Virus record (IMG/VR): IMGVR_UViG_3300032524_000300
Location: 1 to 23,905 of that record
From: a virus
Length of the DNA: 23,905 nucleotides
Direction: 5' to 3' (one strand)
Made by a program: the position numbers and the translations under genes. Shown here piece by piece: positions 4,934 to 23,606 of the stretch. The notes under the pieces were generated by a model that did no database searches, had not been told where the DNA came from, and saw only the letters and a program-made list of their open reading frames with translations. How positions within the stretch are numbered: the first letter of the stretch is position 1; each line of letters begins with the position of its first letter.

Positions 4934-6490
4934 TTAGTATTTACTTTTAACTTGTTTGTGCCCAATGATGGGCTTAAAATGTCTTTGGGGCAGGTGCATA
5001 TCTAAATAATGCCAAGCCCCCTCATCGGCATCTGGGGAATCATCGGCAGATTTGTATCCAGGTTCAATGCCCTTAAGTTGATTGTTGCCCTCAATGGTGT
5101 CAGTGTCGTGGATCAGCTCCAGGTCGTAAAACACTTTTGCCGTGAGGTATCTTGGCTCCATCTTAACCATCCTTGTGTATTTGTTTTCCTTGATCCTGGG
5201 ATCAGTGATGACATTTAGTTTAAAACCAAGCGTATTCTCAGCCACGGCTAGGGCATCCCGGACAGGACCATTAAAAAACTGCCGCTCTACATACCAGATG
5301 ATCCCCGTACCGGCGGGAAGCTTTTTATTAAACTCTCCCATCCACAAAAAGGCATTTATTGAGCTGGTCCTTCTTACAAATGATCCTCTGCAGTGCCTCT
5401 CATCTCCAAGCAAACCCCAAACCCTAACAGCTTTAAAGTCTGATGTTGCAGAATTGACATAAGATGGATCAAAGTATCCAATTATAACACTGTACTTGCT
5501 CCAGGCGGGCATCTTTTTAAATCGGATCATATCCTCTTTAAATATGGATCCCTCAATAACATTTTCGTGGTAAAACTCGCGCCTTGCCAGGATTCCACCT
5601 GTCTCAATCTTTTTGCTAAGCTCTTGAATGGTGTAGCGCTCTTTCCATGCCGGGAGTCCGCCATTGCCAATATCGCATTTTACGCCCGGTGAGCTTTCTG
5701 TGGCAAATACTTTGGAGTGGTAAATCCCTTTTCTTTTGGGTTGGCCCGGCTTGACATCTCCAACTAAATTGGCCAAGATGGAGTTGTGGTGGATGCGGTT
5801 GCCGGCAACCACCACTCTGGCGCCTTTAATCGATAGGGCAAAGTAAAGAGCTCCAAGGATTCTATCAACCACTTCCTTGACACGCCTGGTGTTGTTGACA
5901 ATGATATCGTCATCAATATCATCAATGACCGCATAGTTGGGCCGCTTCTCATTTTTTCGGGCTCCCCTGGGAGATTGATCTCTACCAATGGCCAAAAAAC
6001 GGACTCCATTTTGTGTGGTAAAATCTCCCTCCTCCCAGGAGCCATGATTGTGCTGATCGCCAAAGTCATGGATGTAAAGAGAATTGTACTGCAGCTGAGC
6101 CTGCACGTCACTGAGCAAGTTTTCGGCGTCGTTCTGATTTTTGCCCATCAGTATCATGCCATCAAGCTCTTTATGGGCATGAAGCCACAGGGGAATCAAT
6201 AAATCAGCATGTACACTTTTGGCGTGCTCTCTGGCCCACTCCAAGATGGCAAAACAGTTAGGATCCTTTTTGATTTTATTGGCTGCCTTTATGTGGAAGT
6301 ATCCGCAATCTGAGTCAGCATAAATGGGAAAGTAGGTTTTTACATAGTAGTTGTAATCCCGTAGAGCTCGCTTTTTTCTGGCTTCCTGAGTTTGTTTGTC
6401 CTCATTAAAGGCAACCTCCGTACTGGCCTGTACTTGCTCACAATACCTGATCCACTCCTGATAATCTCTTTTGGTGATTACATTACCCAT
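4934..6490 (-). CDS. terminase large subunit
   Basis: ATPase and nuclease that packages phage DNA into the prohead. Numbering from the start chosen here, residues 80-100 hold a Walker A-like stretch (FAILEWAREHAKSVHADLL) of the degenerate kind common in Mu-like terminases, and YAVIDDIDDD (186-195) is Walker B. QSPRGARKN (172-180) is a conserved arginine-containing loop. The C-terminal RNase H-like nuclease shows acidic residues at GYFDPSY (D341), YVERQF (E402) and ADDSPDADE (about 482-490). The ATG at 6490 gives 518 residues and overlaps the small terminase stop (ATGGGTAA), the usual coupling. An upstream ATG at 6532 would add 14 residues that look like the other frame of the small subunit, so it was not chosen. 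Confidence 0.93.
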   Translation of the reverse strand: MGNVITKRDYQEWIRYCEQVQASTEVAFNEDKQTQEARKKRALRDYNYYVKTYFPIYADSDCGYFHIKAANKIKKDPNCFAILEWAREHAKSVHADLLIPLWLHAHKELDGMILMGKNQNDAENLLSDVQAQLQYNSLYIHDFGDQHNHGSWEEGDFTTQNGVRFLAIGRDQSPRGARKNEKRPNYAVIDDIDDDIIVNNTRRVKEVVDRILGALYFALSIKGARVVVAGNRIHHNSILANLVGDVKPGQPKRKGIYHSKVFATESSPGVKCDIGNGGLPAWKERYTIQELSKKIETGGILARREFYHENVIEGSIFKEDMIRFKKMPAWSKYSVIIGYFDPSYVNSATSDFKAVRVWGLLGDERHCRGSFVRRTSSINAFLWMGEFNKKLPAGTGIIWYVERQFFNGPVRDALAVAENTLGFKLNVITDPRIKENKYTRMVKMEPRYLTAKVFYDLELIHDTDTIEGNNQLKGIEPGYKSADDSPDADEGAWHYLDMHLPQRHFKPIIGHKQVKSKY

Positions 6491-6926
6491 GAGCACTGAT
6501 CTTGTGGTCCACATAGGCTCTCTGCAGCTCATTTATGTCCTTGGCCAGTTCCGGATGTTTCTCATAGCACCACGTCGTGAAGTCTTTAAATACATTGATG
6601 GTGCTTGACATGGTGACTCTCTTGTCTTTGAGTTTCTCAATGGATGAGGCCAGTTTGACCAGCTTGTCGGCATCCAGATTTTTGCCCTCCATCGACAGAT
6701 CGTGCATTCGGGAGTAAATGTTTAAGATGATCCTATCGGGCGTCAGCTGCACGGCGCTCTTGAGCTCCTCCCAGGATCCAGCCTGTTTGTGGGATGTGAA
6801 CGTTTTTGGGGCCCAGCCAACGATTTCACAAATCTCTTTTTGGCTTTTGTCCGTATTCATATACAGGTCGTAGGCAATGGATGCCTTTTGCTTGTTGGAT
6901 ATGTTTTTGTTTTTGGTGTCTGCCAT
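6483..6926 (-). CDS. terminase small subunit (DUF1804-like)
   Basis: DNA-recognition subunit of the terminase, first gene of the leftward operon. Residues about 10-55 form a helix-turn-helix: KQKASIAYDLYM, then KSQKEICEIVGWAPKTFTSH, the spacing of a classic HTH, followed by a Gly-Ser-Trp motif. The rest is helical and acidic/basic mixed, as needed for oligomer formation. The ATG at 6926 (MADTKNKN...) gives 147 residues. The open frame extends upstream to an ATG at 6998, but those 24 residues are Cys/His/Tyr-rich and would be read from the promoter region, so they are unlikely to be translated. Placement directly before the large subunit with an 8-base overlap supports the call. Confidence 0.8.
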   Translation of the reverse strand: MADTKNKNISNKQKASIAYDLYMNTDKSQKEICEIVGWAPKTFTSHKQAGSWEELKSAVQLTPDRIILNIYSRMHDLSMEGKNLDADKLVKLASSIEKLKDKRVTMSSTINVFKDFTTWCYEKHPELAKDINELQRAYVDHKISAHG

Positions 6927-6939
6927 GAGAGTTCTCTTA

Positions 6940-6986
6940 TACAAAGATTTTACTATATGGGGGCAGTTGCATGATAGAAAGGTAGG
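6940..6986 (-). promoter_or_regulatory. leftward late promoter, matched to the rightward one
   Basis: On the minus strand CCTACCT (6986-6980) is followed after 29 bases by AAATCTTTGTA (6950-6940), then the terminase gene start at 6926. The second element fits the Bacteroidota -7 box TAnnTTTG in 7 of 8 positions (AATCTTTG). The same two elements with exactly the same spacing drive the other arm. No good -33 element is seen, so an activator bound to CCTACCT is likely. Confidence 0.65.
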
Positions 6987-7029
6987 CAATGAAAGCAAAA
7001 CCTCCTGCAGTTAATCATTTGGCTCACCC

Positions 7030-7076
7030 CCTACCTGTGGTGGTTGTATGGGCTTTTTTTGAGCTAAATCTTTGTA
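7030..7076 (+). promoter_or_regulatory. rightward late promoter, matched to the leftward one
   Basis: CCTACCT (7030-7036), 29 bases, then AAATCTTTGTA (7066-7076), 31 bases before the protease start. The two boxes and their 36-base period are identical to the minus-strand copy. The intervening 29 bases differ, so the conservation is not simple duplication. The two CCTACCT boxes face each other as an inverted repeat 43 bases apart (6980-6986 and 7030-7036). Confidence 0.65.
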
Positions 7077-7107: not shown

Positions 7108-8214
7108 ATGAGTAAAGGATCCATCTTAATTGTGTCTGAGGGCAACAAAGCAACCATCAAAATGACCGGCAGGGTCAATGACTGGAGTGCTGAGAGTTTC
7201 CAGATGCAGGTGGATGACTTAATTGCCAGAGACATTAAGGAGGTTGTCGTTTTTATCGACAGCATTGGCGGGGATGTAGTTGCGGCCAACCGGATTGCTC
7301 TTATCCTAGATACGTTGCCCTCCCAGCCAGACTGCGAAATTGGGGCCATCTGCGCCTCTGCCGCCACGAGGATATCCCTTAAATGCAAAAACAGATCTAT
7401 GGCCTCCAATGGGCTATATATGATACACAAGCCCAGTCTCAGCATGACCGGCAATGAGGATGAGGTGGCAAGCAATGCCAAGCTCATAAAGTCTATTACC
7501 CAGGATTACAGGCAGGCCTATGCCAAGGCGATGGGTGTTTCTGAGGATGAGGTAGAGAAGCTCTGGAAGGTGGACTATTGGATGGATGCTAAAGAGGCCA
7601 AGAAAAGAGGCTTTGTGACATCTATCTCCAAGGCCCCGGTTGCCATGAGCGCACGTATTGCCGCAGAGGCAAAGGATCACAATTGCCCAGCCGACCTACT
7701 GGCAAAAATCAATCAATCAAATAACAAACATATCAATCATATGAAAATTTCATTACTAGCAGCAGCCTTGGGGTCAGTGATTCCAGCTGTGTTAAACTTA
7801 GGCGACTCTGCCTCAGAGACAGAAGTTGCAGCAGCTATCACGAAGGTCATCAGCTCTAAAGATGAAGAAATTGTGAAGCTCAAAGAGCAAATCCAAGCCA
7901 ATTCTGATCAGCAGATCAAGTCATTGGTTGAGGCATCCATCAAGGATGGCAGAATCACTGCAACCGAAAAGCCCAAATGGGAGAGCATGCTTAAGGCAGA
8001 TTATGCCACTGCATCAGAGTTGATTGCAGGCCTATCTCCAACGGTTGACATCAACAAAGTCATCCAACCAGGTGCCAGTGCATCTGCCGATGATGAGGGT
8101 CGCAAATCTTGGGATTTTAGAAAGTGGGAGCTTGAGGATTCAAAAGGATTGCTTGCCATGAAAGCGGAGTCTCCTGAGAAGTTTGACAAATTACAGGAGG
8201 CCTATTACAGCTAG
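7108..8214 (+). CDS. prohead protease with fused scaffold (ClpP/S14-type, Mu gpI-like)
   Basis: Serine protease that processes the prohead, with a scaffolding C terminus. Residues 1-190 are ClpP-like: DSIGGDVVAA (51-60) is the glycine-rich oxyanion strand, CASAAT (82-87) holds the nucleophile Ser84, YMIHKP (104-109) the catalytic His107, and KVDYWMDAKEAKKRGFV (154-170) the acidic residue, probably D156. After a short polar linker (about 201-211), a new domain begins at Met212: a hydrophobic helix, then a Glu/Lys-rich coiled-coil-like stretch and a KPKWESMLKAD segment, as in Mu gpI C-terminal/gpZ scaffolds. First gene of the rightward operon. The linker is encoded by sequence that reads like a translation-start leader, so a second product is likely. 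Confidence 0.88.
   Translation: MSKGSILIVSEGNKATIKMTGRVNDWSAESFQMQVDDLIARDIKEVVVFIDSIGGDVVAANRIALILDTLPSQPDCEIGAICASAATRISLKCKNRSMASNGLYMIHKPSLSMTGNEDEVASNAKLIKSITQDYRQAYAKAMGVSEDEVEKLWKVDYWMDAKEAKKRGFVTSISKAPVAMSARIAAEAKDHNCPADLLAKINQSNNKHINHMKISLLAAALGSVIPAVLNLGDSASETEVAAAITKVISSKDEEIVKLKEQIQANSDQQIKSLVEASIKDGRITATEKPKWESMLKADYATASELIAGLSPTVDINKVIQPGASASADDEGRKSWDFRKWELEDSKGLLAMKAESPEKFDKLQEAYYS
7741..8214 (+). CDS. nested in-frame scaffold protein (Mu gpZ / lambda Nu3-like)
   Basis: An internal ATG in the frame of the protease would give a 157-residue scaffold alone (MKISLLAAALGS...). The bases before it (caatcatATGaaaa) closely match leaders of real starts elsewhere in this phage, such as gatcatATGaaat at 12614 and aacatATGaaaa at 19044. 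The linker codons before it encode a low-complexity Asn/His/Lys peptide, as expected if the DNA serves as a leader. The protein has an N-terminal hydrophobic helix, a Glu/Lys-rich helical middle and an acidic C terminus. Making scaffold from an internal start of the protease gene is established for Mu and lambda; here it is inferred from the start context. Confidence 0.55.
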   Translation: MKISLLAAALGSVIPAVLNLGDSASETEVAAAITKVISSKDEEIVKLKEQIQANSDQQIKSLVEASIKDGRITATEKPKWESMLKADYATASELIAGLSPTVDINKVIQPGASASADDEGRKSWDFRKWELEDSKGLLAMKAESPEKFDKLQEAYYS

Positions 8215-9457: not shown

Positions 9458-9483
9458 ATGGGCTGAGCTGACAGCCAGCCCAT
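9458..9483 (+). other. 8-bp hairpin between capsid gene and the next gene
   Basis: Perfect inverted repeat ATGGGCTG / CAGCCCAT with a 10-base loop, no T-tract. It overlaps the ATG at 9482, one reason to prefer the start at 9509 for the next gene. It may reduce read-through or mark an mRNA cleavage or stability point after the highly expressed capsid gene. Upstream, TTTG at 9409 and 9435 could be part of a weak Bacteroidota-type promoter. Confidence 0.4.
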
Positions 9484-9508
9484 GTGGCAAGTAAATACGT
9501 TAAAACCC

Positions 9509-9874
9509 ATGAACAAAGAAGCACAAAAGGTCATCAAATCAGTATTTGAGGCCAACAAAGATCAGGATGCATTTGTGGCCACATCAGACAGGCAATGTTT
9601 TTATACCGAAAACCAAGCCTTATCACATGCCAGGACTCTAAAGGATGACAGCATTGTTGCCGTTACTAGGGGTCAATTTGGGGATGATGATGATGTAGCT
9701 GACAAAGCAGCAGCCGACAAAGCTGTAGCTGACAAAGCAGCAGCTGACAAAGCTGAGGTGGACAAAGCAGCAGCCGACAAAGCTGAGGCGGACAAAGCTG
9801 AGGCTGTCAAAGCTGTAGATGGTAAAGGCGCGGACAAGGCACCAGTACCCATCAAAAAAACCGGGGGCAAGTAG
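9509..9874 (+). CDS. small protein with ADKA pentapeptide repeats, after the capsid gene
   Basis: Two parts are seen in this 121-residue protein. Residues 1-60 form a compact basic/acidic domain (MNKEAQKVIKSVFEANKDQD...) with a Cys-Phe-Tyr and a HARTLKDDSIVAVTRG segment. Residues about 64-112 are low complexity: eight five-residue units of the type ADKA(A/V/E), with a degenerate ninth, then a Pro/Lys/Gly tail. Such a tract would form an extended or helical charged tether. I do not recognise a characterised family. The position directly after the major capsid gene suggests a capsid-associated or head completion protein. The start at 9509 is chosen over 9482 because the latter lies in a hairpin and adds residues unlike the rest. 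Confidence 0.65.
   Translation: MNKEAQKVIKSVFEANKDQDAFVATSDRQCFYTENQALSHARTLKDDSIVAVTRGQFGDDDDVADKAAADKAVADKAAADKAEVDKAAADKAEADKAEAVKAVDGKGADKAPVPIKKTGGK
9698..9817 (+). repeat. 15-bp tandem repeat, eight units
   Basis: Eight imperfect units of the form GCNGACAAAGCNGNN, each coding for A-D-K-A plus Ala, Val or Glu. The unit is in frame, so copy number can vary without breaking the gene. A ninth, decayed unit follows to about 9832. Confidence 0.85.
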
Positions 9875-22490: not shown

Positions 22491-22793
22491 TTATATTTTG
22501 GGAACGGAAATAGGTATGAGCATGTTTTGATTCTCCCTGGGAAGAAGGCTTATTTTATCTGTAAACACCAATGCCCGAAGTGGTTTGGGTATTATATGTC
22601 GAAAGTTTAGATGAAGCGTATCGTCACTTTCATTCTGAATATTTAGTACAAGCGTGTGATTCGATCCGGATTGCACTTCGCCTTTGGGCAAATTGGCAAC
22701 ATACACAGAAATTTGGGCACTGACATTCTCACTTAAACCTATAAAGATCGAAGAGGTGATAGCAATTAAACATGCTAGCCTGCACCGTGTCAT
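22491..22793 (-). CDS. exported chaperone-like host protein, apparently truncated by the prophage
   Basis: The 100-residue product has a signal peptide (MTRCRLACLIAITSSIFIGL, likely cut after VSA) and then an Ig-like segment: SGSNHTLVLNIQNESDDTLH, one strand around LVFTDKISLLPRENQNMLIP and the end ISVPKI. The neighbour from 23606 has a similar order (LPGQTLTITYGLTPPAEI), but goes on for over 150 residues past this point, beginning with a Ser-Gly-x-Tyr segment. Loss of the rest at the place where phage DNA ends suggests the gene was interrupted by integration. In the +1 frame the sequence stays open to 22427 for a further 23 codons, so a small frameshift before the real junction is another reading. 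Gene order and a 12-base gap put it in one operon with the 266-residue protein. Confidence 0.6.
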   Translation of the reverse strand: MTRCRLACLIAITSSIFIGLSENVSAQISVYVANLPKGEVQSGSNHTLVLNIQNESDDTLHLNFRHIIPKPLRALVFTDKISLLPRENQNMLIPISVPKI

Positions 22794-22805
22794 CGTGGCT
22801 GTGCT

Positions 22806-23606
22806 CTACAGTTTATCGTCGTTGTTGATAGTGATATCAATCTTCATCCCGAACATATCTTCATCGCCACAGTCGGCAACCAATATGCCAGAGTATTCTC
22901 CAGATGGTATTCCTTGCAATGGAAGATCAAATAATTTACAGAATCCTGGATATACCTTTTGATATGGGAGCTCTTTTCGGGCAACTTGATTCCCTTGGGC
23001 ATCAATTAAGTCGAGAACCATAATAGGCTTCATCATATAATTACCTGGGTTTAATACAGCTATGCGAATTTGATTGCGTCCTTCCAAGGTATCGAGATCT
23101 ATACTGACAAAGTCGAGTTGTTTTAGGGCACCTGAAGGAAAATTCCCGATTATCTGAATGGCATATCTAACAAGGGCATTGACTTTGACACCAACCTCGG
23201 GTAAAGTTGTATCTAAATCGTCCATTTCTTCAACCATAATAACTCCCCAATAACTGCCTGAACTCTCTATTTCAGCAGGTGGAGTCAATCCATATGTAAT
23301 AGTTAGAGTCTGTCCCGGCAGCATGAGGATTTCATTGTCCGAAATCGCCATCCAATTTGCATTGCATCTGTCTCTGTCAGTTGTTTCCAAAAAGGCGGTT
23401 TCCCCTTTGCAATTATGTTGAACGTCCGTTTTGTATATTTTGGCTCGCTTTTCTTTTTCGCCTGTATTTCTGATTACAATACTGCCCTGAACTGTGGTAC
23501 CGTTTGCAAGTTTATGTTCATGTGATAGTCCGTTTACGACGACGATGCTGGCATAGCAATTGCCAATTATTAAAAAAGCGGCAGCTACCGCAATAAATCT
23601 TTTCAT
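22806..23606 (-). CDS. exported Ig-like protein, pilus-chaperone type
   Basis: The 266-residue host protein has a signal peptide (MKRFIAVAAAFLIIGNCYAS) and two beta-sandwich-like halves. The first (about 25-135) has GTTVQGSIVIRNTGEKEKRA, MAISDNEILMLPGQTLTITY and SGSYWGVIMVEEMDD, similar in order to periplasmic pilus-assembly chaperones or other Ig-like exported proteins. The second (about 145-260) has VKVNALVRYAIQIIGNFP, NQIRIAVLNPGNYMMKPIMV and ends with a Cys-containing strand. Cysteines at NCKGETAF, DRCNAN, FCKLF and ADCGDE may form disulfides. The genes around it encode a small exported protein and a second chaperone-like protein, which fits an assembly system for a surface fibre. It is not phage-derived. 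Confidence 0.6.
   Translation of the reverse strand: MKRFIAVAAAFLIIGNCYASIVVVNGLSHEHKLANGTTVQGSIVIRNTGEKEKRAKIYKTDVQHNCKGETAFLETTDRDRCNANWMAISDNEILMLPGQTLTITYGLTPPAEIESSGSYWGVIMVEEMDDLDTTLPEVGVKVNALVRYAIQIIGNFPSGALKQLDFVSIDLDTLEGRNQIRIAVLNPGNYMMKPIMVLDLIDAQGNQVARKELPYQKVYPGFCKLFDLPLQGIPSGEYSGILVADCGDEDMFGMKIDITINNDDKL

Follow-up and report, generated by a model that had tools for sequence, protein, structure and literature searches.

A Putative Divergent Late-Gene Control Region and Its Candidate Regulator in Mu-Like Phages of Bacteroidota

INTRODUCTION

Two structural operons that point away from each other in a Mu-like phage of Bacteroidota raise the question of how both could be turned on together, and by which protein. 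The window analyzed here is the whole 23,905-base virus record IMGVR_UViG_3300032524_000300, whose left contig end falls inside the left arm. Its minus strand carries a Mu-type head module (terminase, Gp36, portal, MuF, and a tape-measure-like protein), as supported by profile matches to Portal_Mu (7.5e-60), Phage_Mu_F (3.3e-10), and Gp36 (1.4e-09). ClpP protease, capsid, and contractile-tail (sheath) genes lie on the plus strand. MuA/MuB transposase genes are found in annotated relatives, within the early region that lies beyond the window contig. A small protein with an ADKAxADKA repeat run is encoded between the capsid and endolysin-like genes (9482-9874), and two genes at the right end (22491-23606, minus strand) resemble bacterial secreted or envelope proteins, unlike phage structural genes; the boundary between prophage and host may be situated around 22.3 kb of the window. 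We propose that the region between the two arms probably controls the late genes of this Mu-like transposable Bacteroidota phage through a shared divergent switch and a regulator of the phrog_17154 type.

RESULTS

Two matched elements between diverging operons. The space between the arms (terminase, portal, and MuF on the minus strand; ClpP protease, capsid, and sheath on the plus strand) holds a pair of bipartite elements, as an earlier note on this DNA had claimed. CCTACCT-N29-AAATCTTTGTA occurs once per strand, from 6986 to 6940 on the minus strand and from 7030 to 7076 on the plus strand, and nowhere else in the window (Table 1). The shorter form CCTACCT-N29-AAATCTTTG has exactly 2 matches in the 23,905 bases (6942-6986, minus; 7030-7074, plus), both of which extend to AAATCTTTGTA, and none in 100 shuffles. 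Neither half is rare alone, since CCTACCT has 6 copies in the window, a number reached by 3% of the shuffles, and AAATCTTTG has 3; it is thus the combination and its spacing that stand out. Single TTTG boxes and CCTACCT are common enough to suggest ordinary -7 boxes beside a coincidental 7-mer, but such an origin by chance is hardly credible given the empty shuffles and the dozens of relatives, an independent second set included, in which the geometry and the arm match recur (see below). The identity between the arms is longer than first noted, with TCAnnnCCTACCTnT on both and 11 of 17 bases identical, and CCTACCT occupies positions -41 to -35 from the TTTG. Compared with the Bacteroidota sigma-A promoter, both arms carry AATCTTTG (7/8), and a -33 TTG is present on the right arm only. 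No middle site or palindrome is evident between the two boxes of the window.

Table 1. Features of the putative control region and its first genes (window coordinates)
Feature	Position	Strand	Basis or remark
Large terminase	4934..6532	-	
Small terminase-like DNA-binding protein (TerS, phrog_4151), first left-arm gene	6483..6926	-	phrog_4151 / HTH-like matches
-7 box of the left-arm (terminase) putative promoter, AATCTTTG	6942..6949	-	7/8 match to Bacteroidota TAnnTTTG; TTTG distance conserved in relatives
ATG where the left-arm -33-like TTT/TTG element is expected	6970..6972	-	Poor match; place taken from relatives' logo (TTT at -28..-26 mostly)
Phage-specific box, left arm, TTTCATTGCCTACCTTT	6978..6994 (CCTACCT 6980-6986)	-	11/17 identical to right arm, in register
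Phage-specific box, right arm, GCTCACCCCCTACCTGT	7022..7038 (CCTACCT 7030-7036)	+	11/17 identical to left arm, in register
TTG, -33-like element of the right-arm (protease) putative promoter	7044..7046	+	20 bp before the -7 box; relatives' logo
-7 box of the right-arm putative promoter, AATCTTTG	7067..7074	+	TTTG distance conserved in relatives
Whole core, divergent TTTG boxes 125 bp apart, centre ~7008	6942..7074	.	123-125 bp in 39/61 first-set relatives
ClpP-like prohead protease, first right-arm gene	7108..8214	+	PF00574 E=1.3e-20

The divergent layout in relatives. Terminase and alignment searches of IMG/VR, GTDB genomes, and annotated phages yielded about 230 loci; the protease query matched only L003, a copy of the window contig. 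As a rule, the protease and terminase arms diverge in this group of Mu-like Bacteroidota phages. This layout is found in Peternella_1, fF4, hankyphage p00, the Elizabethkingia phage TCUEAP3, and a Porphyromonas (P. gingivalis) phage, as well as in some 70 loci of the first set, most of whose gaps measure 120 to 200 bp. The Flavobacterium phage FPSV-S1 (L014) and the other FPSV phages are an exception, with protease and terminase arms that are co-directional, unlike those of their relatives.

The earlier note had made its reading depend on conservation of the boxes or of their spacing in relatives. Many relatives keep the place of the box and the distance between the -7 boxes, but not the letters CCTACCT: the closest relatives, L004 (TerL 69% identical) and L006 (62%), carry other boxes at that place and have the same TTTG distance as the window, 125, with a different intervening sequence. 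An IMG/VR scan for CCTACCT-N28-30-NATCTTTGTA hit 105 contigs, and among the 80 matches listed only L003 has the motif on both strands.

A fixed distance between -7 boxes. For the first set of 61 nonredundant gaps, we measured the number of bases separating each CAAA from each TTTG downstream of it, with 60 dinucleotide-preserving shuffles as the control. The divergent TTTG boxes are 123, 124, or 125 bp apart in 39 of these gaps, compared with at most 8 in any 3-bp bin of the shuffles. As a guard against tuning, a second set of 64 new nonredundant, nonoverlapping regions was assembled with other terminases as queries; its independence was established by pairwise comparison, an earlier, stricter filter having left only 6 regions. 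Here, 23 of the 64 regions fall at 123 to 125 bp, 17 of them at exactly 123. Other 3-bp bins mostly hold about 4 regions and one reaches 19; spacings near 95 to 97 would be expected from pairs in which one TTTG occupies the -33 position of its arm and the other is the -7 box of the opposite arm.

The exact pair at 123 to 125 bp is missing from 22/61 first-set and 41/64 second-set gaps; exact spacing is less frequent in the second set than in the first. A degenerate -7 box seems to serve in some of the exceptional phages, p00 among them (on the protease arm, by visual inspection). A symmetry search without -7 anchors did not confirm the degenerate box of p00 and gave no clear result for p00, fF4, L021, L064, L067, or L072; it placed matched arms elsewhere in L016 and L092.

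A phage-specific box matched between arms. Between -49 and -33 from the TTTG, the two arms of the same phage match at a mean of 10.09 of 17 positions across 56 relatives, versus 5.54 (sd 0.28) when arms are re-paired among phages, with a maximum of 6.70 in 20,000 permutations. Per base, arms of the same phage agree in 45 to 75% of cases and arms of different phages, at most positions, in 25 to 35%. The excess appears only at zero shift and vanishes at shifts of 1 to 4 bases. The second set gave 9.0/17 versus 5.78 (sd 0.45; maximum of 7.48 in 5,000 re-pairings), again at zero shift only, which confirms the arm matching out of sample. As read from these alignments, the sequence of the box varies from phage to phage and its position is constant. 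Other parts are common to all phages rather than phage specific, namely, the -7 box CAnnTTTG (A in 92%), whose first position is T in only 13% of the phages, and a T-rich element at -28 to -26, where T makes up 94% at -27 and 83% at -26.

Arm matching does not extend beyond the box and -33 zones, and the elements are in register with the -7 boxes on both arms. Both facts argue against a central structural site in place of a promoter region. The model for such a site is the strong gyrase site of Mu, which lies near mid-genome, as the gap also does in several complete relatives; the hankyphage gap is off centre, however, and we hold this explanation to be highly improbable.

The boxes of flavobacterial relatives are palindromic, TTTAGnnnCTAAA, and stand three in a row about 21 bp apart (two helical turns), the outer two sitting at the places of CCTACCT. 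Three-site arrays with this spacing and with the boxes as outer members recur in many relatives. No box copies above chance were found beyond the divergent region in the phage sequence searched, which included the complete Peternella_1 with its ends, and a whole-record scan for TTTAGnnnCTAAA revealed no excess outside the array in near-complete phages. In Peternella_1 (L010:18548-18680), the ATACGGA boxes adjoin an inverted repeat of 19 bp, CTGTAGGTATTTCCTACAG; the frame is the same but the array is built differently.

A candidate regulator, phrog_17154. To look for a regulator, we clustered the gene families that are conserved downstream of the left arm. One of them, phrog_17154 (annotated as function unknown), comprises basic, helical, helix-turn-helix (HTH)-like proteins of 60 to 100 aa, and its profile matches 24 of the 30 aligned family members from relatives. 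Every locus that carries the gene (42 in the first set, 50 in the second) has a single copy of it, 18/26 whole records have one each, and it is often encoded where the left late operon ends. The p00 copy (BK010646, 10177-10446) stops 10 bp from the terminus of this operon and is convergent with it; the C gene of Mu occupies the same place relative to its late operon. A flavobacterial member lies at 18460-18708 of L018. Phages with TTTAGnnnCTAAA-like boxes and a covered middle region carry a regulator subtype with the signature TIWLIV..TGYYK.

The predicted fold is a helical HTH (pLDDT 79), whose structural look-alikes are mostly DNA-binding domains, none of them significant (best Foldseek E value, 2.6). 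PDB profile matches to 1re0 and 1s7o were likewise not significant, and TnpE and the MuA DNA-binding region gave a structural Z score of 7.2, within the range of common arrangements among helical folds. A Pfam scan assigned no family to the regulators, and no Mor match was found among the phrog_17154 members scanned. The Mor/C family (PF08765) had no match above its cutoff in 20 phage records. Two sub-threshold matches, to the HTH only, lie far from the late operons, at 40787-40927 of the p00 record (L012, BK010646) and 36572-36718 of the L233 record.

Among second-set loci whose middle region is covered, roughly one in two has no detectable regulator, and Peternella_1 has only a sub-threshold match to the family. 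L147, L160, L168, L203, L225, and L218 are group phages without a detectable phrog_17154-family regulator; L225 and L218 still have the TTTG pair at 123 bp, and the L225 arms match at 11/17. Phages of this kind may use another regulator.

A C-terminal Q[LMI]x[LMI]F motif resembling the bacterial clamp-binding motif is present in 19/64 regulators, compared with 22 of 3,497 open reading frames of similar size (~50-fold); examples of QLxLF-like tails are L012:26166-26456, L088:9565-9813, and L119:6780-7004. By analogy, such a tail may link late transcription to replication. Its absence from most members makes it at best an accessory feature.

Covariation of regulator and box. In all sets combined (n = 39), similarity of the regulator correlates with that of the box (Mantel r = 0.50, P = 0.0002), and the correlation remains at 0.41 after the large terminase (TerL) is removed. 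For TerL and the box, r drops from 0.34 to 0.11 after the regulator is removed. The first set (n = 28) behaved similarly, with a regulator-box r of 0.52, or 0.38 after removing the terminase, versus 0.04 for the terminase given the regulator. Restricting the comparison to distant phages gave 0.29 for the regulator and 0.04 for the terminase. Gains were modest with nearest neighbors (0.44 versus 0.42) and with discordant neighbors (0.415 versus 0.379). Two other middle-operon families added little or nothing to box similarity in the first set, given the regulator. As judged from these comparisons, the phrog_17154 protein is the better tracker of box sequence than the terminase; partial Mantel tests are liberal with phylogenetic data, so the covariation ranks candidates and is not proof.

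The same analysis bears on TerS. This protein has HTH-like matches and its gene starts at the array, which it adjoins, so that it could bind the boxes for autoregulation or as the start of packaging. Its similarity nevertheless explains nothing of the box similarity in the first set once the regulator is given (partial r = 0.01, P = 0.44). Transposable phages, moreover, package from their ends, and no box copy was found elsewhere in the sequence searched, the ends of Peternella_1 included. TerS is thus a very unlikely ligand of the boxes.

DISCUSSION

The phrog_17154 protein is most likely a Mu C-like activator of late genes acting through one shared divergent switch, as suggested by box uniqueness, promoter context, and covariation. 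In the mechanism that we propose, two back-to-back promoters would serve the two arms, terminase-portal on one side and protease-capsid-tail on the other. Each would consist of a weak host-type -7 box and, about 21 bp upstream of it, a -33-like element rich in T, with a regulator box directly upstream of the latter; if the -7 box is taken as -12 to -5, this regulator box would span roughly -57 to -41 relative to the start. The two boxes would be copies of one phage-specific site, placed so that the -7 boxes sit 123 to 125 bp apart. A small HTH-like protein of the phrog_17154 family, made from the lytic middle operon, would bind as an array between the promoters and recruit or activate the host RNA polymerase on the two sides simultaneously. 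From the sequences we infer late firing, promoter activity, protein binding, and activation, and the window phage presumably has the same regulator as its relatives. The core idea of the earlier note, a shared regulator site and a -7 element in register that form one switch, is supported by the 123- to 125-bp spacing and the arm-matched boxes of relatives, whereas the letters CCTACCT are not conserved.

The boxes might instead bind a repressor, either that of lysogeny or a delay factor, that shuts both late promoters until it is removed. Promoters with both -33-like and -7 elements might be managed by the host polymerase unaided, and palindromic arrays with a two-turn spacing are common among repressors. 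The boxes, however, lie upstream of the -33 element and not over the core promoter, and a repressor of lysogeny needs a site at the early promoter too, whereas the boxes were not found elsewhere in the phage. The covarying gene sits among lytic middle genes, and a -7 box so far off consensus at its first T fits a promoter that needs help. A repressor is therefore unlikely. Activation fits best with a box unique to the region, an off-consensus -7 box, and a covarying gene of lytic middle location.

A more far-reaching version of the activator model, which we regard as rather doubtful, would make phrog_17154 a new family of late activators with fast-changing DNA specificity, in which a box array as a private lock and an HTH protein as its key would operate in a rigid 125-bp divergent frame; in some members, a clamp-binding tail would also couple late transcription to DNA replication.

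Phages of this kind occur widely in Bacteroidota of the gut, the mouth, and aquatic habitats. The open-access literature searched describes no late promoter, late activator, or late-gene regulator of transposable phages of this phylum. Our results identify a putative promoter region open to testing and, in a family of unknown function, a candidate regulator. The hankyphage is among the phages that carry the candidate, and an inducible laboratory system exists for it, based on RepC-HP silencing in B. thetaiotaomicron jmh43. The ordered series of natural regulator/site pairs, diverging at a fixed geometry, lends itself to the study of how DNA specificity evolves.

Among known systems, hankyphage p00 and the Winoviridae (Peternella_1) share the divergent protease/terminase layout, and p00 also carries the regulator family. 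In the keyword passages and repressor section of the p00 paper (PMC12135933), RepC-HP is the only regulator described, with no late promoter or activator. The sigma-A promoters of Bacteroidota, with a -7 box TAnnTTTG at -12 to -5 (PMC9723704), resemble the putative phage promoters in their CAnnTTTG/AAnnTTTG -7 boxes and in the T-rich element about 21 bp upstream; unlike them, the phage promoters usually have the first T replaced and always have a phage-specific box alongside. In T4, the sliding clamp ties late transcription to replication (PMC2988020, PMC7892883). The clamp-binding-like tail of 19/64 regulators recalls this gp55/gp33 system, although there is no sequence link between it and the regulator, and most members lack the motif.

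The closest parallel is late transcription in Mu, driven by C at Plys, PI, PP, and Pmom. C sites sit upstream of the -35 element (PMC4461284), and the boxes described here, at -49 to -33 from the TTTG, lie likewise directly upstream of a T-rich element at -28 to -26, in phages that are also transposable. As in Mu, the late genes would depend on the host polymerase and on a small activator from the middle operon. Unlike in Mu, the regulator is outside the Mor/C family, each phage has a site sequence of its own, and the -7 box is of the Bacteroidota type. Several separate late promoters sharing a box, in the manner of Mu, were not found in the sequence searched, which covered all of Peternella_1; the box occurs in one divergent region only. 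Thus, where Mu has separate, co-directional late promoters, the Bacteroidota phages appear to have a single divergent region with two promoters at a fixed distance.
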